Below are positions 4,524 to 64,000 of a stretch of 64,000 nucleotides of DNA, piece after piece (position 1 is the first letter of the stretch; the number at the start of each line of letters is the position of its first letter). The notes under the pieces are model-generated. The model was not told where the DNA came from. It did not search any database and saw nothing but the letters and a program-made list of their open reading frames with translations. Where the stretch lies: assembly GCA_030445245.1 (NCBI GenBank), contig JAUCSD010000001.1:750671-814670 (forward strand). The letters run 5' to 3'. The position numbers and the translations under genes were made by a program. This DNA is from Candidatus Saccharimonadota bacterium. GTDB taxonomy: Bacteria; Patescibacteriota; Saccharimonadia; Saccharimonadales; Saccharimonadaceae.

Positions 4524-5543
4524 ATGGATATACACACTAACATACCCCTCAAAAATTACACCACTATGCGTCTCGGTGGTAATGCCCGTTTCATGACCGA
4601 AGTTCATACACCTCAAGAGGTAGCTGACGTCTGTCGTAATGCCCATGCTCAAAGTCTTCCTATCTTTATTCTAGGAGGTGGCAGCAACGTTATCGTTCGC
4701 GATGAAGGCTTCGCCGGCATCGTCGTACGCAATCGTTTAACCGGTTTTGATATTGTGAGTGAAGAGCCGAGCCAGACGACTATCAAAATTGGAGCGGGTG
4801 AGAACTGGGATGAAGTTGTCAAACGCACAGTAGATATGAATCTGAGCGGTATCGAGGCTATGTCTGCCATACCTGGCACCGCAGGCGCAGCACCTGTCCA
4901 AAACGTTGGCGCCTACGGCCAAGAAATTGCCGATACGCTCATATCGCTTGATGCCTACGACATTCAGACTGATAGGTTCGTGACACTTCAAGCCAGCGAC
5001 TGCGGCTTCTCGTATCGCCAGAGTATTTTCCGCAGTACAAGCGCAGAACGATACGTTATTACAAGTATTACCTTACGACTCTACAAAGCTGCTCCTCAAC
5101 CACCTTTTTACAAAGATGTACAAGATTATTTTGATACGAATAGTATCACCATCTTCACACCTCAGGCCATAAGAGATGCAGTGATTATTATTCGAACAAA
5201 CAAACTACCCGACCCTGCCGTCACGCCAAATACAGGTTCATTTTTTAGAAATGCTGTCATCGAAGACTGGCAGCTAGCTGATCTGAGAAAACAATATCCT
5301 GACATACCTACGTACGATATGCCAGATGGTCGGTTTAAAGTCCCTACCGGCTGGCTCATCGAGCAAACAGGATTTAAAGGTAAAACACTTCATGGCATGC
5401 GAGTCCACGATAAAAACGCTCTCGTTCTTATTAACGAATCTGCACAAAGCTACGCCGATCTTGCGGCTGCTCGTAACGAAATTATCGGCGCAGTACGTGA
5501 CCAGTTCCGCATTACCATCGAACAAGAGCCGCTTGAAATATAA
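4524..5543 (+). CDS. murB: UDP-N-acetylenolpyruvoylglucosamine reductase (MurB)
   Basis: Reduces UDP-GlcNAc-enolpyruvate to UDP-MurNAc with FAD and NADPH in the cytoplasm. The N-terminus has NYTTMRLGGNARFM. The FAD-binding segment ILGGGSNVIVRD lies near residue 50. The PGTAGAAPVQNVGAYGQE block follows, and GSFFRNAV carries the catalytic-loop Ser. The 339-residue length fits the E. coli-type (type I) enzyme. A TATAAT at 4504-4509 places the transcript start about 8 nt before the ATG, and no ribosome site is visible. Its MurA-type partner is encoded at 11173. Confidence 0.95.
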   Translation: MDIHTNIPLKNYTTMRLGGNARFMTEVHTPQEVADVCRNAHAQSLPIFILGGGSNVIVRDEGFAGIVVRNRLTGFDIVSEEPSQTTIKIGAGENWDEVVKRTVDMNLSGIEAMSAIPGTAGAAPVQNVGAYGQEIADTLISLDAYDIQTDRFVTLQASDCGFSYRQSIFRSTSAERYVITSITLRLYKAAPQPPFYKDVQDYFDTNSITIFTPQAIRDAVIIIRTNKLPDPAVTPNTGSFFRNAVIEDWQLADLRKQYPDIPTYDMPDGRFKVPTGWLIEQTGFKGKTLHGMRVHDKNALVLINESAQSYADLAAARNEIIGAVRDQFRITIEQEPLEI

Positions 5544-5585: not shown

Positions 5586-6089
5586 ATGAACCGCGAAAAT
5601 GGGTTTACACTCGTCGAACTCCTCGTCACCATGGTTATCATGGTTATCTTAATAACGCTGTCTGTCGTAAATTTGCGAAGCAGCCAAATAACCGCGCGTG
5701 ATGACCAACGCAAAGCAGACGTGACGAACATCGCTCAACAACTAGAAAACTATTATAAGTTGGGGTCAGACAATGATGCGGCTGGGCAGTACCCACCAAC
5801 TGACCACTTGGACACCGAGGCTGATATCAAAGCCACCCTACGTGATGTTAATGCCGACGTACTTCGCGCGCCCAACGTAGCCTCCACTGATCCGGTCAGT
5901 GTTGTCATCGCTACTGATACCAACCCGGTCGTACCGACACCAACAGTAAATACGTATGTATATGAGCCGATCCAGTCAGACGGGACGCTATGTCAAAGCG
6001 TTGGAGATGAATGTCGTAAGTTTAACTTATACTATATGCTCGAGTCGGAGCCGAATGTCGTAAAAAAGGTAACCAGTAAAAACCAATGA
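5586..6089 (+). CDS. Type IV prepilin-like protein (minor pilin)
   Basis: A class III signal: a short leader MNRENG, then FTLVELLVTMVIMVILITL with Glu at +5. This is the prepilin-peptidase site and assembly helix of type IV pilins. The soluble part of about 140 residues carries two Cys (CQSVGDEC). First gene of the pilin cluster: its TGA overlaps the next ATG by 4 nt. TATGCT ends 7 nt before the ATG. The ATPase for this system probably includes the pilB-type gene at 63340. Confidence 0.88.
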   Translation: MNRENGFTLVELLVTMVIMVILITLSVVNLRSSQITARDDQRKADVTNIAQQLENYYKLGSDNDAAGQYPPTDHLDTEADIKATLRDVNADVLRAPNVASTDPVSVVIATDTNPVVPTPTVNTYVYEPIQSDGTLCQSVGDECRKFNLYYMLESEPNVVKKVTSKNQ

Positions 6090-6472
6090 CCACACTCCAC
6101 AACGCTACCCAAGCAGGCTTCTCAGCTGTCGAGCTGTTAATTACTCTGTTCATTGCGGCAGCCTTCATTGGGACTGGTGCTCAACTATACTCAGTTATCA
6201 TCCAAAACAGTGATGAGGCCCGCATGCGCTCGATCGCAAGTAATATTGCTTACAACAACATGCGACGTTACGCCGCCGATGCAACTAACCCCTGCACAAC
6301 TTCTACTCCAACAGCTACACTTCCATCCAATAGCGGTCTTACAAATGCCAGTATCGTCGTCACCATTACGTGTCCATTTGGGGTCAGCACGCCAACATCC
6401 CGAGTAGAGGCCAAAGTATTATATAGTTCACCACAACAGGAGGCCGTCCATGCGCTTTACATTACCAACTAG
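6086..6472 (+). CDS. Type IV prepilin-like protein (minor pilin)
   Basis: A 128-residue protein with prepilin-like leader MTTLHNATQAG, then FSAVELLITLFIAAAFIGTG, Glu at +5. It has a two-Cys soluble domain. It overlaps the previous gene by 4 nt and the next by 23 nt, so the three genes form one translationally coupled unit. It probably primes or caps the pilus; this role is inferred from its size and position. Confidence 0.85.
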   Translation: MTTLHNATQAGFSAVELLITLFIAAAFIGTGAQLYSVIIQNSDEARMRSIASNIAYNNMRRYAADATNPCTTSTPTATLPSNSGLTNASIVVTITCPFGVSTPTSRVEAKVLYSSPQQEAVHALYITN

Positions 6473-8465
6473 TCGTCGTAGGTCTGCTGTATCCGGGTTT
6501 ACGCTTATCGAGGTACTCATCATCGCCCCTATCGTTGTGCTTGTTATCGGAGGTTTCGTTGCGCTAATTATGGCGATGGTCGGTGATGTTCTGCTTACCA
6601 GAGATCAAAACATTATGGCATATGAAACCCAAGACGCACTTGATCGAATCGAACAAGATACTCGTATTGGCACTCAATTTCTCGATACAAGCAGAACACT
6701 TGCCGCGCCCCAAGGAAGTGACGATGGTACCGCTGCATTCTCAAGTAGTAACTCGCTTGTCATTGGGGCGCTCGCCACGAATGAAAATCCAGCCGCTCCT
6801 GATCGTCAGCTCATTTACTATGCAGACCAGCCAAACGCCTGCGGTTCAACCCAAGGACAAAACCGCGTATTCATCGATAAGTTAATTTACTATATAAAAA
6901 ATGGATCACTTTGGCGACGAGTCGTCGTCCCCCCGTATAACCTCAACAGTCCGAGTGATGCGTTATCTCTTTGCTCACCACCTTGGCAACAAAATAGCTG
7001 TACGCCTGGCTACACGCTAGTTCCCCCATGTCAGACTGATGATACTGAGGTCATGAAAAACATAGATACCATGACCGTCACCTACTATGACAGTCCGAGT
7101 GGCGCCAATGTACTGACAGGTTCGGCGATTCTTAATGCATCAACTATCGACGTAACGATCACCGGCAAAAAGACAACCGTCGGCAAAGTGGCCGCATCAA
7201 GCGGTACAATACGCGCCTCGAAACTTAATACCGTCTCTGCCGATATTCCGCCTCCAACCTCGCCCGTGGTTTCTCATACGACAACGAACTCGCCTGATCC
7301 TACCGCCAACTTTACATGGGCTAGCTCTCAATACGCTACGTCATACAATGTCTCATACAAAATTAATAGTGGTTCATGGGTAAATACATCAGTAAGCGCA
7401 GCCACTGCCTCGTATGCAGTGAGCGCTTCGCGCAACGACACGGTATCGTTTAAAATAGCTGCCGTTAATACTTCGGGTGTATCCCCAGATTCCAATGATT
7501 CAACGACGTTCCCGGCTTGGTATAACTTCGATCTTCAAAACGACTGGGAAAACTATGGCGGTGGATACAACACAGCACAGTATACTAAAACAAGCGCAGG
7601 AGTTGTTTTTCTAAAAGGATTGATTCGATACGGAACGGCGACAGCTAATACGGTCATCGGAACGTTACCCGCTGGCTACCGTCCATCCGCGGCACTCGTC
7701 TATCAGGTGACCACCTCACCAAATGCGACCGCTCGTATTGACGTACTTGTTGATGGAACGGTCATCATCGTCACCGGTAGCACAAACTGGATATCACTCG
7801 ATAGTATTGCGTTTTTGCCAAGCACCACATCAAACACATGGACCAATCTACCCATGAATGGTGCGGGTGGCTGGACAAACTGGGGTGGCATTTACACTGT
7901 AGTACGTACAGCTACTGATAACATCGGACGGATTCACATACAGGGGCTCGCAAAAGCTGGCACACAAACAGTAAACACGATTATTACCACATTGCCTAAT
8001 GCCAACCAACGACCACCAAAGACATTGCACTTTCCGGCTGGAGGTAGCGTCGATAGCAACTGGTGGGTTTGGTATGGCGGAGGCGAAATTGTCAAACGAG
8101 GCGCTCAAACATCGAGCTACCTAGGGCTCCAAGCCATTTATTACCCTGGGACCGCAGGCACCTGGAATACTCTCGCTCCGGGGAGCACCTGGGTGAATGT
8201 GGGTGGAAACTATCCAGATCTCCAGTACACAAAAGCAAGTGATGGTGTCGTGACCCTCCGTGGCTTTATTAAAAGCGGAACAACTACCTTAAACACAGTT
8301 ATTGCAACACTTCCGGTAGGCTATCGACCTTCAGGAAGAGGTGTGTTTGCTGTTACAACAAACGAAGCTTTTGGCCGAGTTGATATCGATGCCACCGGGG
8401 CTATTATCGTACAATCGGTCAGTAATGTCGGTCTAGCCCTGAATCTCTCCTTTATCTCCGATTAA
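6450..8465 (+). CDS. Very large pilin with Fn3-like domain and three tail-fibre-like repeats (candidate pilus-tip adhesin)
   Basis: 671 residues. A prepilin leader (…SAVSG / FTLIEVLIIAPIVVLVIGG) is followed by a pilin globular region. Near residues 268-358 lies a fibronectin type III-like segment (TANFTWASSQYATSYNVSY, VSFKIAAVN). Three related units then start near 364, 474 and 580. Each begins W-x-N-x-GG-x-Y, then a short G(V/R)(V/I)xLxG strand, a GTxTxNT(V/I)I motif, and in units 1 and 3 LPxGYRP. Such units are familiar from phage tail fibres. The start is set by CAGGAGG 6-12 nt upstream. Binding to a host surface is an inference. Confidence 0.85.
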   Translation: MRFTLPTSRRRSAVSGFTLIEVLIIAPIVVLVIGGFVALIMAMVGDVLLTRDQNIMAYETQDALDRIEQDTRIGTQFLDTSRTLAAPQGSDDGTAAFSSSNSLVIGALATNENPAAPDRQLIYYADQPNACGSTQGQNRVFIDKLIYYIKNGSLWRRVVVPPYNLNSPSDALSLCSPPWQQNSCTPGYTLVPPCQTDDTEVMKNIDTMTVTYYDSPSGANVLTGSAILNASTIDVTITGKKTTVGKVAASSGTIRASKLNTVSADIPPPTSPVVSHTTTNSPDPTANFTWASSQYATSYNVSYKINSGSWVNTSVSAATASYAVSASRNDTVSFKIAAVNTSGVSPDSNDSTTFPAWYNFDLQNDWENYGGGYNTAQYTKTSAGVVFLKGLIRYGTATANTVIGTLPAGYRPSAALVYQVTTSPNATARIDVLVDGTVIIVTGSTNWISLDSIAFLPSTTSNTWTNLPMNGAGGWTNWGGIYTVVRTATDNIGRIHIQGLAKAGTQTVNTIITTLPNANQRPPKTLHFPAGGSVDSNWWVWYGGGEIVKRGAQTSSYLGLQAIYYPGTAGTWNTLAPGSTWVNVGGNYPDLQYTKASDGVVTLRGFIKSGTTTLNTVIATLPVGYRPSGRGVFAVTTNEAFGRVDIDATGAIIVQSVSNVGLALNLSFISD

Positions 8466-9113: not shown

Positions 9114-9229
9114 TAAGAGGCATCATCACTTTAAGTACACATACTGCTTATTCTTACTTTTATAAACGATAAATGAATAGTATACTACAAACATTATTAT
9201 CGTCATTTATCATGGGGGGCAGAATCGAT

Positions 9230-9757
9230 ATGATTCTTAACAATACTACTGTTAACGGCATGAGAAAGGAGCGAGGCTTCACTATTGTCGAGCTTTTGAT
9301 TGTGATTGTCATTATCGCTATCTTGGCTGCCATTACCATCATTGCGTATAACGGTTTGACGGCGCGTGCTAATACGTCCAGTTCACAAAGTGCTGCAGAA
9401 AATGCCACAAAGAAGGCCTCAGCCTATAATGCAGAAGTTGGTACATATCCAGCTGCAAGTTCGCTGATGACTACTGCAGCCAGCTCGACGACTTATTACC
9501 TTAACGGAATTACCTTTGACGCTACCATCTTATCTTCAGGTAACCTTCCCGCTTCACCATCTGAGCTTAACTTCTATAAATGTGGTACCGGGGCTACAAC
9601 AGCTGCTCCGACTACATTAGCTGGCATAACGACCCAGACTGGAACAAAGGTTAACTATTGGAATTACTCGACGGCTACTGTAGGTATTCAATCTACCGGC
9701 ATAATAGATCCCTCTGTAATCGCTACCTACAACGTTGGTTGCGTATTGAGTACCTAG
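9230..9757 (+). CDS. Type IV major-pilin-like protein (second tandem copy)
   Basis: 175 residues with leader MILNNTTVNGMRKERG and FTIVELLIVIVIIAILAAI. The frame is open from 9173, but the ATG at 9230 is preferred: its first residues match the paralogue's MILN start, and the same G-rich box (GGGGGGCA) lies upstream as at 8550. Cys pair at FYKCG and YNVGC near the end. It probably provides an alternative or additional pilus subunit. Confidence 0.9.
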   Translation: MILNNTTVNGMRKERGFTIVELLIVIVIIAILAAITIIAYNGLTARANTSSSQSAAENATKKASAYNAEVGTYPAASSLMTTAASSTTYYLNGITFDATILSSGNLPASPSELNFYKCGTGATTAAPTTLAGITTQTGTKVNYWNYSTATVGIQSTGIIDPSVIATYNVGCVLST

Positions 9758-9825: not shown

Positions 9826-11103
9826 TTATTTATCGCTCGGTAGCGGGAATTGCTGAACGAATTCTTTCACTTCATTACGAAGCTTAGTGAGCTCAACCTC
9901 ATCCTCGCGAGCATCAATCGCTTGCTTCATCCACGTAGCGATTTGAGCCATGTGCTCTTCTTTAAGTCCGCGAGTAGTAATCGCTGGCGTACCAAGACGG
10001 ATACCACTTGGTTTAAATGGTGGGAGTGGGTCGTCGGCAACACTGTTGGCGTTAAGCGTTAGGCCAATTTTATCGAGAGCTCGCTCGACAACTTTACCGT
10101 CAAGACCAAAACTTTTATATACGTCAGCCAGAATCAAGTGATTACTCGTTCCGCCCGTGACTAGCTGGAAGCCCTGCTTCTGCATTTCGTCAGCCAGAAC
10201 TGCGGCATTTTTAATAATCTGCGCTGCATATTCTTTGAACTCTGGCTTGAGCGCTTCGCCGAATGCGACCGCTTTCGCTGCGATAGAGTGCATATGTGGC
10301 CCTCCCTGCGTACCTGGGAAGATAGAACGATCAATAAGCGTTGGAATGTTCTCAAGTGTCTTCTCAGGCTTTTTAAGTGGGTTGCCAACCGTGCCGCGAG
10401 ACAGAATCAGACCGCCACGAGGTCCACGTAGTGTCTTATGCGTTGTGGTTGTAATGACATGAAAGCCATGATCGAATGGGTTCTCGGCGACCCCACCGAC
10501 AATCAACCCTGCAATATGAGCCATGTCAGCCATCAGAAGCGCGCCCACTTCATTACCGATGGCAGCAAACTTAGCATAGTCGAGCTCACGGGGATAGGCG
10601 CTAAAACCGGCAAGAATAATCTTTGGCTTCGTTTCAAGCGCCACGCGGCGTAATTCTTCGTAGTCAATTTCACCTGTGTCAATATTCTTCATTTTATAGC
10701 GTACGAAGCTATATAGCTGTGCACTCCGCGTCACCGGCGCACCATGAGTGAGGTGACCACCATGAGAGAGATCCATGGCAAGAACAGTGTCACCTGGTTC
10801 AAGCCAAGCATTGTATACCGCCTCATTTGCCGGAGCTCCTGAGTGTGGCTGAACATTGGCATGGTCAGCTTTAAAAAGCTCTTTGGCGCGGTCAATTGCA
10901 AGCTGCTCGACCTGATCGGTAAAATCCTGACCCCCGTAATAACGACGACCTGGATAGCCTTCAGAGTACTTGTTAGTAAAAATGCTTCCGAGTGCAGTTA
11001 GCACGTCTCGCGATACATAATTCTCACTTGGGATAAGCTCAAGCCCATCACGTTCTCGTTGTTCTTCACCTGCTATTAAATCGGCAATTCGTGTATCTAT
11101 CAT
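9826..11103 (-). CDS. glyA: Serine hydroxymethyltransferase
   Basis: PLP enzyme that interconverts serine and glycine and charges tetrahydrofolate with a one-carbon unit. Visible marks are LIPSENYVS, NKYSEGYPGRRYYGG, NVQPHSGAPANEAV, SHGGHLTHG, DMAHIAGL, and the PLP-lysine segment TTTTHKTLRGPRGG. The start is the ATG at 11103 (MIDTRIADL), preceded by AGGAGA; the frame continues upstream to 11136 without such support. 425 residues, normal for the family. Divergent from the HTH-murA gene. Confidence 0.96.
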   Translation of the reverse strand: MIDTRIADLIAGEEQRERDGLELIPSENYVSRDVLTALGSIFTNKYSEGYPGRRYYGGQDFTDQVEQLAIDRAKELFKADHANVQPHSGAPANEAVYNAWLEPGDTVLAMDLSHGGHLTHGAPVTRSAQLYSFVRYKMKNIDTGEIDYEELRRVALETKPKIILAGFSAYPRELDYAKFAAIGNEVGALLMADMAHIAGLIVGGVAENPFDHGFHVITTTTHKTLRGPRGGLILSRGTVGNPLKKPEKTLENIPTLIDRSIFPGTQGGPHMHSIAAKAVAFGEALKPEFKEYAAQIIKNAAVLADEMQKQGFQLVTGGTSNHLILADVYKSFGLDGKVVERALDKIGLTLNANSVADDPLPPFKPSGIRLGTPAITTRGLKEEHMAQIATWMKQAIDAREDEVELTKLRNEVKEFVQQFPLPSDK

Positions 11104-11160
11104 GACAGTTCTCCTATGTACATTTAAGTATACCATCTATTGCATATATATCGTATGTGA

Positions 11161-11172: not shown

Positions 11173-12708
11173 ATGACTAATGAAGATTACAAAGTAAAAA
11201 TTGGCACCCTTATTCAAGAAGCCCGCATCCACCGCGGCCTTACACAAGCAGAGTTAGCGCTTGAGCTTAATACAAGCCAAAGCGCTGTTAATCGTATCGA
11301 AAAAGGTGGTCAAAATATCAGCCTTGAAATGATCGCTCGCATCAGTGATGTTCTGGCAAGCAATATCGTTACCCTTAACAGTACTAATAAAATTAACTTC
11401 CGTGTACGCGGTGGCAAAAAGCTAGCGGGCAGCATTGAAGTAAAGACAAGCAAAAATGCGGCTGTCGGGCTTCTTTGTGCTTCACTCCTCAATAAAGGAC
11501 GAACTACTCTTCGCCAGGTTGCTCGCATCGAAGAGGTTAACCGCATCATCGAAGTACTTCAAAGTATCGGTGTAAAGACGCGTTGGATCGGTGACACGAA
11601 CGACCTTGAGATTACTCCACCAAAGCGTCTTGAGCTTGAGAAGATCGATGTTGAAGCAGCTAAGCGTACACGTACCATTATCATGTTCCTCGGACCTCTC
11701 CTTCACCAATACAGCGACTTCAAATTACCCTTTGCTGGCGGCTGTAACCTTGGCACCCGAACAGTAGAGCCTCATATGGTCGGACTTGCCGCTTTCGGCA
11801 TGAAAGTGGTCGCCGCACCAAACACTGATTACTACCATGCAATTGTCACGAAGAAGAAGGTGACGAGGACGATCCTTCTCACCGAACGCGGTGACACGGT
11901 CGCTGAAAACGTTATTATGGCCGCAGCGTTGTACGACGGCACTACTATGATCCGTAACGCCAGCCCAAACTACATGGTGCAGGATGTTTGTTTCTTCTTA
12001 CAAAAACTCGGTGTTAAAATCGAAGGTATCGGAACAACCACCCTTACGATCACCGGCAAGAAAACGATCAATCAAGATATTGAATATTACCCAAGTGAAG
12101 ACCCTATTGAAGCCATGAGTCTCATCGCAGCCGGTATCGTAACCGATTCTGAAATCAGCATCACTCGTGTCCCTATTGAATTCGTTGAAATTGAGCTTGC
12201 CACCCTTGAAGGCATGGGGCTTAACTACGAACGAACAACAGAGTATACGGCACGCAATGGTTCGACGCGACTCGTTGATATCACACTTGGCCACTCCAAG
12301 CTGCACGCGCCAAAGGACAAGCTTCACAGCATGCCATTCCCAGGTGTTAATATGGACAATCTTCCCTTCCTTGGGCTGATCGCAACAGTAGCCGAAGGCC
12401 GTACACTCGTCCACGACTGGTCGTACGAAAACCGTGCAATCTATTTCACGGAACTGAGTAAGCTAAATGCCAAAATTGAATTAGTTGACCCACACCGCGT
12501 TTACATTACCGGTCCAACAAAATGGAAGCCAGCTGATATCATTGCCCCGCCCGCCCTGCGTCCTTCGGTTGTGATTTTGCTCGCTATGCTTGCAGCTCCA
12601 GGCAAATCAACGCTACGTGACGTTTACTCAATCAACCGTGGCTACGAGGAGCTTGCAAACCGTCTCAATATCCTAGGCGCCGATATTGAGACTCTCCGAG
12701 AAATCTAG
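11173..12708 (+). CDS. murA: MurA-type enolpyruvyl transferase with N-terminal XRE-type HTH domain
   Basis: 511 residues. Residues 8-64 form a Cro/C1-type helix-turn-helix (LIQEARIHRGLTQAELALEL, then SQSAVNRIEKGG). From residue 73 the EPSP/MurA fold begins. KTSKNAAV at 91-98 holds the Lys-Asn pair that binds the sugar nucleotide. GGCNLGTRTVEPH at 189-201 holds the catalytic-loop Cys191. The enzyme transfers enolpyruvate from PEP to UDP-GlcNAc, the step before MurB. Catalytic residues are kept, so activity is likely; a sensor or regulator role for the fused HTH is inferred. A perfect TATAAT ends 6 nt before the ATG. Confidence 0.9.
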   Translation: MTNEDYKVKIGTLIQEARIHRGLTQAELALELNTSQSAVNRIEKGGQNISLEMIARISDVLASNIVTLNSTNKINFRVRGGKKLAGSIEVKTSKNAAVGLLCASLLNKGRTTLRQVARIEEVNRIIEVLQSIGVKTRWIGDTNDLEITPPKRLELEKIDVEAAKRTRTIIMFLGPLLHQYSDFKLPFAGGCNLGTRTVEPHMVGLAAFGMKVVAAPNTDYYHAIVTKKKVTRTILLTERGDTVAENVIMAAALYDGTTMIRNASPNYMVQDVCFFLQKLGVKIEGIGTTTLTITGKKTINQDIEYYPSEDPIEAMSLIAAGIVTDSEISITRVPIEFVEIELATLEGMGLNYERTTEYTARNGSTRLVDITLGHSKLHAPKDKLHSMPFPGVNMDNLPFLGLIATVAEGRTLVHDWSYENRAIYFTELSKLNAKIELVDPHRVYITGPTKWKPADIIAPPALRPSVVILLAMLAAPGKSTLRDVYSINRGYEELANRLNILGADIETLREI

Positions 12709-63339: not shown

Positions 63340-64000
63340 ATGCGTATTTCAGATGTTACGATTGAACAACTGCTCGAAGGCGCTGGCGTAGCGACGAAGG
63401 AGCAGATTGACGTCTTAAAAGAGGAGGCGGTTCGTTCAAGACGACCCCTGCAAGCGCTTGTCATTCAAAATGAACTTATCACCGAGAAAGACCTCGTTAA
63501 AGCATACGCTGAGTATGCGCAAATTCCTTTCGTTGAAATAGAACCAAAAGACATAATCGAAGATGTTCTTAATAAAATACCCGAACGTATTGCCCGGCAG
63601 TACAACGCAGTACTCTTTAAGATCAGCGATGACGGCGTCATGCATCTTGCCATGGACGACCCCGATGATGTCCAGGCAGTTAATTTCATCCAAAAACAAA
63701 TTGGTGAAAATATCAAATTATATATTGCGACACGTAGCAATATCTTAAACTGTCTTGAGAATTATCGTGGCGACGTTAACCAAGAGCTTAACCAGGTTAT
63801 CGATGTCCAACGTGAAGATAATGGTGAAGCACAAGTTATAAGTGAAACGGATGTCTCTGAAGACTCCCCAATCGCCCAAACCGTTAATCTCTTACTCGAG
63901 TATGCAATCCGCTCAAGTGCCAGCGATGTTCACATTGAACCACGGGAAGACTATGTGCAAGTGCGCTATCGTATCGATGGTGTACTCAAAGAAGTAAACC
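63340..64000 (+). CDS. pilB: Type IV pilus assembly ATPase PilB/GspE (partial, N-terminal part)
   Basis: The frame opens at ATG 63340 and runs off the right edge (220 codons seen). The N-terminal T2SSE_N domain is visible: EQIDVLKEEAVRSRRPLQALVIQNELITEKDLVKAYAEYAQIPFV in pieces over residues 18-65, then AIRSSASDVHIEPREDYVQVRYRIDG, the start of the ATPase core. TACAAT ends 14 nt before the ATG. Powers extension of the pili whose subunits may be those at 5586-9757. Confidence 0.93.
   Translation, partial: MRISDVTIEQLLEGAGVATKEQIDVLKEEAVRSRRPLQALVIQNELITEKDLVKAYAEYAQIPFVEIEPKDIIEDVLNKIPERIARQYNAVLFKISDDGVMHLAMDDPDDVQAVNFIQKQIGENIKLYIATRSNILNCLENYRGDVNQELNQVIDVQREDNGEAQVISETDVSEDSPIAQTVNLLLEYAIRSSASDVHIEPREDYVQVRYRIDGVLKEVN

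Follow-up and report, generated by a model that had tools for sequence, protein, structure and literature searches.

The window, that is, the whole 64,000-nt stretch of DNA that was analysed, contains a locus of five pilin genes between murB and glyA and, at its far end, the start of a type IV pilus (T4P) assembly locus. The features are listed below in order of position.

4524..5543, forward strand: murB, the left flank of the pilin locus, conserved in 80 related loci and not a pilus part
5586..6089, forward strand: minor pilin 1, in a conserved PilV2-like position, with a class III leader (Pfam N_methyl 4e-8)
6086..6472, forward strand: minor pilin 2, a small pilin overlapping the ORFs on both sides (N_methyl 7.5e-4, just under cut-off)
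6438..6443, forward strand: Shine-Dalgarno-like AGGAGG of the modular pilin, seen in the sequence and lying within the preceding ORF
6450..8465, forward strand: PilW2-like modular minor pilin of 671 residues, comprising a pilin part, an Fn3-like linker and three units predicted to be phage receptor-binding protein (RBP) heads
6450..7235, forward strand: pilin module, residues 1-262, with a class III leader (residues 1-16), a helix and a globular domain
7251..7511, forward strand: Fn3-like linker domain, residues 268-354, from a phmmer match to 4u3h and an fn3 match in a related unit-bearing pilin
7512..7817, forward strand: head unit 1, residues 355-456, from an AlphaFold2 model matched to phage RBPs by Foldseek
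7866..8144, forward strand: head unit 2, residues 473-565, from the unit HMM and Smith-Waterman alignment; the most diverged unit, without LPxGYRP
8184..8453, forward strand: head unit 3, residues 579-668, from the unit HMM; similar to a Janthinobacterium phage protein
8550..9056, forward strand: PilA2-like pilin (N_methyl 1.1e-8, above cut-off; GspG and PilA models under theirs)
9173..9757, forward strand: second PilA-like pilin (N_methyl 7.3e-9)
9826..11136, reverse strand: glyA, the conserved right flank of the pilin locus
63340..64000, forward strand: start of pilB2, the first gene in the T4P-2 assembly locus (pilB2 C2 M2 N2 O2, recX, recA and one pilin), which runs past the window (L296)

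The sequence-only reading of this DNA had described the 671-residue protein as a pilin joined to an Fn3-like segment and three repeated units, encoded behind two minor pilins in one coupled unit, and the present analysis bears out this description. The class III leader was found as MRFTLPTSRRRSAVSG/FTLIE, with Glu at +5 and a hydrophobic helix following; G16 and E21 are invariant in the alignment of the pilin family. On this protein alone, the Pfam N_methyl model gave a value of 0.076, under its cut-off, and the family profile (A6) matched PDB pilins across the N-terminal helix (9egp, 1.2e-5). The pilin part also has homologues in sister genera in which it stands alone. By sequence, the Fn3-like segment is weak here, with a phmmer match between residues 278-353 and the designed Fn3 chain 4u3h (E=1.1e-3); at the equivalent position of a unit-bearing pilin from a related genome (L196), Pfam fn3 was above cut-off at 5.5e-10. 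Both minor pilin ORFs lie ahead of the gene, and the second also matched TIGR02523 PilV at 3.5e-5, under cut-off. Because the ATG at 6450 lies within this preceding ORF, which ends at 6472, and is itself preceded by AGGAGG, translational coupling is plausible.

The unit HMM set the bounds of the three units at residues 361-456, 473-565 and 579-668. Units 1 and 3 aligned with a Smith-Waterman score of 200, compared with a maximum of 69 in 500 shuffles, and the corresponding values were 103 and 58 for units 1 and 2 and 100 and 65 for units 2 and 3; the three units are thus mutually homologous, far beyond chance. The motifs named in the sequence-only reading were recovered, with LPAGYRP in unit 1, LPVGYRP in unit 3 and LPNANQRP in unit 2, and with GTATANTVI, GTQTVNTII and GTTTLNTVI across the three. 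The joining of pilin and units recurs in 45 further ORFs of related genomes; the architecture is not an assembly accident.

The locus order, murB, pilin, small pilin, PilW-like pilin, one or two PilA-like pilins and glyA, is kept across the family. We found the same murB to glyA order in a named Candidatus Saccharimonas, where the locus is pilin-only, and scans of contigs from further named relatives gave no match beyond that one. The five-pilin locus has no machinery genes, and the separate machinery locus, which starts 55 kb away, carries recAX and one pilin, with no PilT. A T4P-1-like locus is also present in the genome, comprising pilM N O B T C, pilins and a gene that is likely to be pilD. 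Machinery genes were named by order, length and motifs, and T2SSE was identified by HMM. Compared by description with TM7x (PMC12206443), the T4P-1 and T4P-2 machinery loci correspond to its loci one and two and the five-pilin locus to its locus three. The neighbours of the 671-residue pilin are pilins, murB and glyA, not a phage structural gene cluster. On these grounds, the protein is probably a modular minor pilin from a type IV pilus of Saccharibacteria, the counterpart of PilW2 in T4P-2. Next to glyA, an ORF at 11173-12708 on the forward strand resembles, as judged by eye, a fusion of an XRE-type helix-turn-helix and a MurA-like enolpyruvyl transferase; similar ORFs of about 510 residues adjoin glyA in most syntenic loci.

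In TM7x, the pilins of locus three form the thin pilus, T4P-2, which contributes to host binding, and T4P-2 mutants lose half or more of their host binding; the adhesin candidate, PilX2, is encoded in that locus, and deletion of pilW2 had no effect whereas pilX2 mattered (PMC12206443). This counts against an adhesin role for the window pilin, which would require that the role had moved to PilW in its lineage. No gene for an RCC1-bearing PilX2 was present in the pilin locus of the window. Elsewhere in the same genome, outside the window and away from the pilin loci, there is an RCC1-bearing PilX-like ORF of 727 residues (G000:C1:189660-191795).

The sequence-only reading had further held that the unit is of a type familiar from phage receptor-binding fibres, and comparisons of sequence and of predicted fold agree on this. 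No Pfam model covers the unit. In PHROGs, the array matched a minor tail protein family (8.1e-20), which also matched 51 of 56 unit sequences. A tblastn search returned 109 phage records, with a best value of 3e-17; Microbacterium phages aligned across all three units, as three-head arrays, and single-unit matches came from Janthinobacterium, Streptococcus, Geobacillus, Bacillus, Arthrobacter and Streptomyces phages. The best single-unit matches were not specific to phages of Actinobacteria, since those from Janthinobacterium, Geobacillus and Streptococcus scored equally; unit 3 and the Janthinobacterium phage protein were about 41% identical over 90 residues. When profiles were compared, eight full-length pilins matched gp98 of Microbacterium phage Pumpernickel over the whole array with a probability of 99.85%. 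Short repeat matches to designed 'Pizza' propellers also appeared among the profile matches and were discarded.

RBPs are usually encoded at the last large tail gene before the endolysin or beside the tip attachment protein, and several of the matched phage genes occupy the former place or adjoin the latter. When viral contigs were scanned with a single protein, either the window array or Pumpernickel gp98, no match was obtained, and the unit alignment was too variable for a pattern search; a DNA pattern worked, and IMG/VR contains at least the matches listed with it. Among the matches listed, the unit was C-terminal, within 30 residues of the end, in 92 of 103 non-redundant viral ORFs. In PLSDB, the unit was present in one plasmid record.

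A structure was predicted for unit 1 with AlphaFold2 from an alignment of this unit and 55 other rows (unit 3 of the window and 54 viral units), and the model had a pLDDT of 96.3. Foldseek against the PDB revealed that the best 28 matches were all phage tail or RBP proteins, the next match having a probability of only 0.33. The leading match was the Listeria phage PSA RBP gp15 (6r5w), with an E-value of 1.2e-5 and a TMq of 0.75, followed by the Pa223 tail needle and the RBP heads of p2 and TP901-1 (TMq 0.55-0.68). As modelled, the unit is the small all-beta head barrel of the PSA gp15, p2 and TP901-1 type. Against viral models, it matched minor tail proteins of Streptomyces, Microbacterium and Arthrobacter phages and an Actinomyces phage protein. 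The three-unit model had a pLDDT of 82.1 and a pTM of 0.83, with about 40 residues of unit 2 poorly predicted (pLDDT 43-56); it matched the model of a Microbacterium phage Truong minor tail protein across the whole array, with a TMq of 0.87 and an rmsd of 2.7, so that two separate predictions gave the same arrangement. The C-terminal part was thus found, as a single unit and as an array, to be modelled as the sequence-only reading had anticipated, and we assign the unit, from its sequence and predicted fold, to the phage RBP head domains.

The count of three is nearly constant in the pilins. Exactly three units were present in 45 of 46 unit-bearing pilin ORFs, and the remaining ORF has room for a diverged third; a single unit was found in 98 of the 103 non-redundant viral ORFs, among the matches listed. 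This count matches the trimeric state of the phage heads, a correspondence that the sequence-only reading had not drawn. For p2 and TP901-1, the binding sites for glycerol and saccharides lie where the heads of the trimer meet (PMC3893620). Since phage heads bind saccharides between the subunits of a homotrimer, three heads in cis are, by analogy, probably a one-chain trimer, with which the pTM of 0.83 of the three-unit model is consistent, and a pilin present once at the tip would need all three heads in one chain to form such sites.

Unit trees placed each position in its own group in phages, and in pilins this held strongly for unit 2 and less so for unit 3. When only three-head proteins were included, the best tree joined unit 2 with unit 2 and unit 3 with unit 3 at modest support; joining of unit 1 with unit 1 was not rejected. 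Independent triplication, with all pilin units in one clade, was 16 log units worse and was not rejected (AU 0.145). In the tree that included single-unit phages, units 2 and 3 of the pilins stood apart from units 2 and 3 of the phages. The best tree of three-head proteins favours positional homology of the pilin array with the phage array, tentatively in view of the last two results.

We found the heads to be far more divergent than the pilin that carries them. Between two close species (G007 and G113, murB 97% identical), the pilin was 95% and the Fn3 domain 92% identical, whereas the heads were 72, 61 and 75% identical, with an abrupt step at about residue 360; this is the variability that the sequence-only reading had expected of the repeats. 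The dS was about 0.5-1.0 in the pilin and most flanking genes and 2.4-3.0 in the heads. Recombination is the simplest reading of the raised values, which could also reflect saturation. The PilA-like neighbour was variable too, at 63%. Over nine pairs with murB above 85%, the pilin was 77% and the heads were 60-67% identical.

Units were present in 56 of 245 genomes of the window's family. In wider samples, 31 of the 393 genomes from the order and 7 of the 380 from the phylum carried them; every one of these genomes belongs to this same family, in which the units were on pilins wherever the gene was examined. No units were found in lineages of other lifestyles among these 393 and 380 genomes. 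In these samples the C-terminal part is confined to one Saccharibacteria family, and neither this distribution nor the predicted fold refutes the sequence-only reading. There was no GC shift of the kind that marks recent transfer (0.49-0.50 in the units and 0.48 in the pilin part). The wide phage range, the one plasmid record and the single family in the phylum sample favour a transfer from phage to pilin; the unit trees themselves fix no root.

At a conserved adhesin slot, several modules can replace one another, and the cassette is one of them; this point went beyond the sequence-only reading. In the 80 murB-anchored loci, the PilW-like gene carried the head cassette in 43, another extension in 8 and no extension (a short gene) in 23, and it was absent from 6; within a single genus (g36), bare PilW is present alongside heads and other modules. 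Other modules on PilW or neighbouring pilins comprised CBM_4_9, Laminin_G_3, Fibrinogen_C, Fib_succ_major, FG-GAP, Gly-rich and F5/8 type C, and the other extensions of PilW are often sugar-binding. A PilX2-like RCC1 pilin followed short PilW genes only (5 of 23, as against 0 of 51 extended genes; Fisher 0.002, with kinship ignored), a test made at the pilin locus because RCC1 is too common genome-wide. The Fn3 and three-head cassette was also found on the small minor pilin, the counterpart of minor pilin 2, in G080 (L193:8592-10229) and on a PilA-type pilin in G191 (L196:122-1753).

Adjoining this last gene on the reverse strand is a 780-residue pilin (L196:2857-5199, G191:C21) with N_methyl, fn3, three phage tail collar domains (PF07484, 5.6e-58) and Gp10_C matches. 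Two unrelated phage tail-fibre domains have thus been taken up by pilins of this family, each in three copies. In L218 (G155), the PilW-like gene is split into ORFs of 143 and 443 residues, the latter with three units, possibly by a frameshift or a phase-variable switch. The small minor pilin beside a head-bearing pilin has its own Laminin_G_3 lectin-type module at L191:9018-10043 and L250:5313-7838, so that two kinds of binding module can come from a single locus. At L253:162-7105 (G179), all three minor pilins are enlarged (673, 513 and 1106 residues), with glycine-rich and F5/8-type galactose-binding domains.

Saccharibacteria are tiny bacteria of a group that lives on other bacteria. We propose, with a probability of roughly three in four, that the 671-residue protein is a modular pilin that acts as an adhesin and binds cell-wall glycans of the host through a three-head cassette spaced by the Fn3 domain. 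After processing, the pilin module would be incorporated into the pilus, probably in a tip or near-tip position, since the bulky C-terminus would not be expected to pack in the shaft. The three heads would pack into one body mimicking a phage RBP homotrimer, and a single pilin copy would thereby offer inter-head saccharide sites. These sites may bind a host cell-wall glycan and tether the epibiont ahead of close contact. The alignments describe heads that are quickly replaced or diversified on a pilin module that is kept, and a cassette that is lost or exchanged at the same gene; the host that is recognised might change as a consequence.

The heads might instead have no part in host recognition and serve as a rigid spacer, in DNA binding or, like CofB with CofJ, in holding a secreted partner. 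The trimeric tip pilins CofB and TcpB do serve as adapters (PMC8179133), but the same pilin slot bears lectin-type modules in sister species, the heads are the fastest-changing part, unlike a spacer, and the Fn3 domain is already one; we consider this explanation unlikely. It is also conceivable that the pilus heads chiefly occupy the phage receptors of the host, shielding the host and thereby the epibiont, with adhesion secondary. Shared receptors are possible, as the heads are of one family with actinophage tail heads; however, few copies would be available on a thin pilus for covering receptors, and the locus corresponds to that of a TM7x pilus with a demonstrated role in host binding (PMC12206443), which makes this proposal quite improbable.

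A separate matter is the origin of the array, which phages may have taken from bacterial surface proteins, or which both may have obtained elsewhere. The trees fix no root and to that extent allow it, but the unit is diverse and widespread in phages, by the tblastn records and by at least the IMG/VR matches listed, and has one plasmid record and one family in the phylum sample, so a reversed direction or third source also seems unlikely. Phage resemblance is the only point in favour of a prophage remnant, a chimeric assembly or a chance repeat. No phage genes surround the ORF at 6450-8465, synteny is conserved, the pilin ORFs hold to three units and the GC of units and pilin part is nearly equal; a remnant or chimera was dropped as contradicted by these observations, and the chance of any of the three being correct is negligible.

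Beyond the adhesin reading, we suggest tentatively, as less likely than not, that a complete single-chain three-head RBP device passed as one cassette between actinophage tails and the host-binding pili of Saccharibacteria. Epibiont and phage would then read the same host surface with homologous heads, and the cassette would have moved among three pilins (PilW-like, small minor and PilA-type) and been swapped with other modules as the host range changed. For host recognition by episymbiotic Patescibacteria, a process that still needs an explanation, the three-head pilin is a concrete, folded candidate. Its phage relatives point to cell-wall saccharides as the candidate ligand class, and with such a ligand class and with locus modules that vary between species, host recognition could be predicted and tested. 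Phage tails and cellular pili would have receptor-binding modules in common, and the number three would have a simple structural explanation.

Modular type IV pilins are already known, for example PilB and PilC of Streptococcus sanguinis (Raynaud et al. 2021, PMC8179133). The pilin of the window bears the same marks, namely a leader with Glu at +5, a C-terminal module foreign to T4P, and pilin neighbours with a T4P system. It resembles PilB and PilC in its class III leader and pilin module, its C-terminally grafted binding module and its T4P gene set (PMC8179133), and would, like them, probably be exposed at the tip. The grafts described in the available text of that report are vWA, ConA-like lectin, S74 and others, and a phage RBP head or three-head cassette is not mentioned in that text. 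The tip minor pilins CofB and TcpB present a threefold, ligand-holding structure at the pilus tip (PMC8179133), as proposed for the window pilin; in contrast, they assemble as homotrimers from three separate chains and have another C-terminal fold, whereas the window pilin has three copies in one chain.

The closest pilus system for comparison is T4P-2 of TM7x (Grossman et al. 2025, PMC12206443), which likewise has a recAX machinery locus and a separate five-pilin locus. In both, one minor pilin with an enlarged C-terminal domain is the candidate host adhesin; in TM7x this is PilX2 with an RCC1 beta-propeller, whereas in the window it is a PilW-like pilin with phage heads. The siphophage RBPs PSA gp15 (6r5w), p2 and TP901-1 share the beta-barrel fold and the C-terminal position, but carry one head per chain and trimerise, while the window pilin has three heads in one chain. 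Microbacterium phage Pumpernickel gp98, Truong gp37 and JordanFarm gp39 have three tandem units in the same predicted arrangement, at about 23-30% identity to the window array; their N-terminus is a phage region, not a pilin. No report of pilins joined to phage tail or RBP domains was found in the literature covered, mainly open-access journal papers. Modular pilins are therefore known, as is the proposal of a saccharibacterial pilin adhesin (PMC12206443); the phage head cassette on a modular pilin is, to judge from that literature, new.
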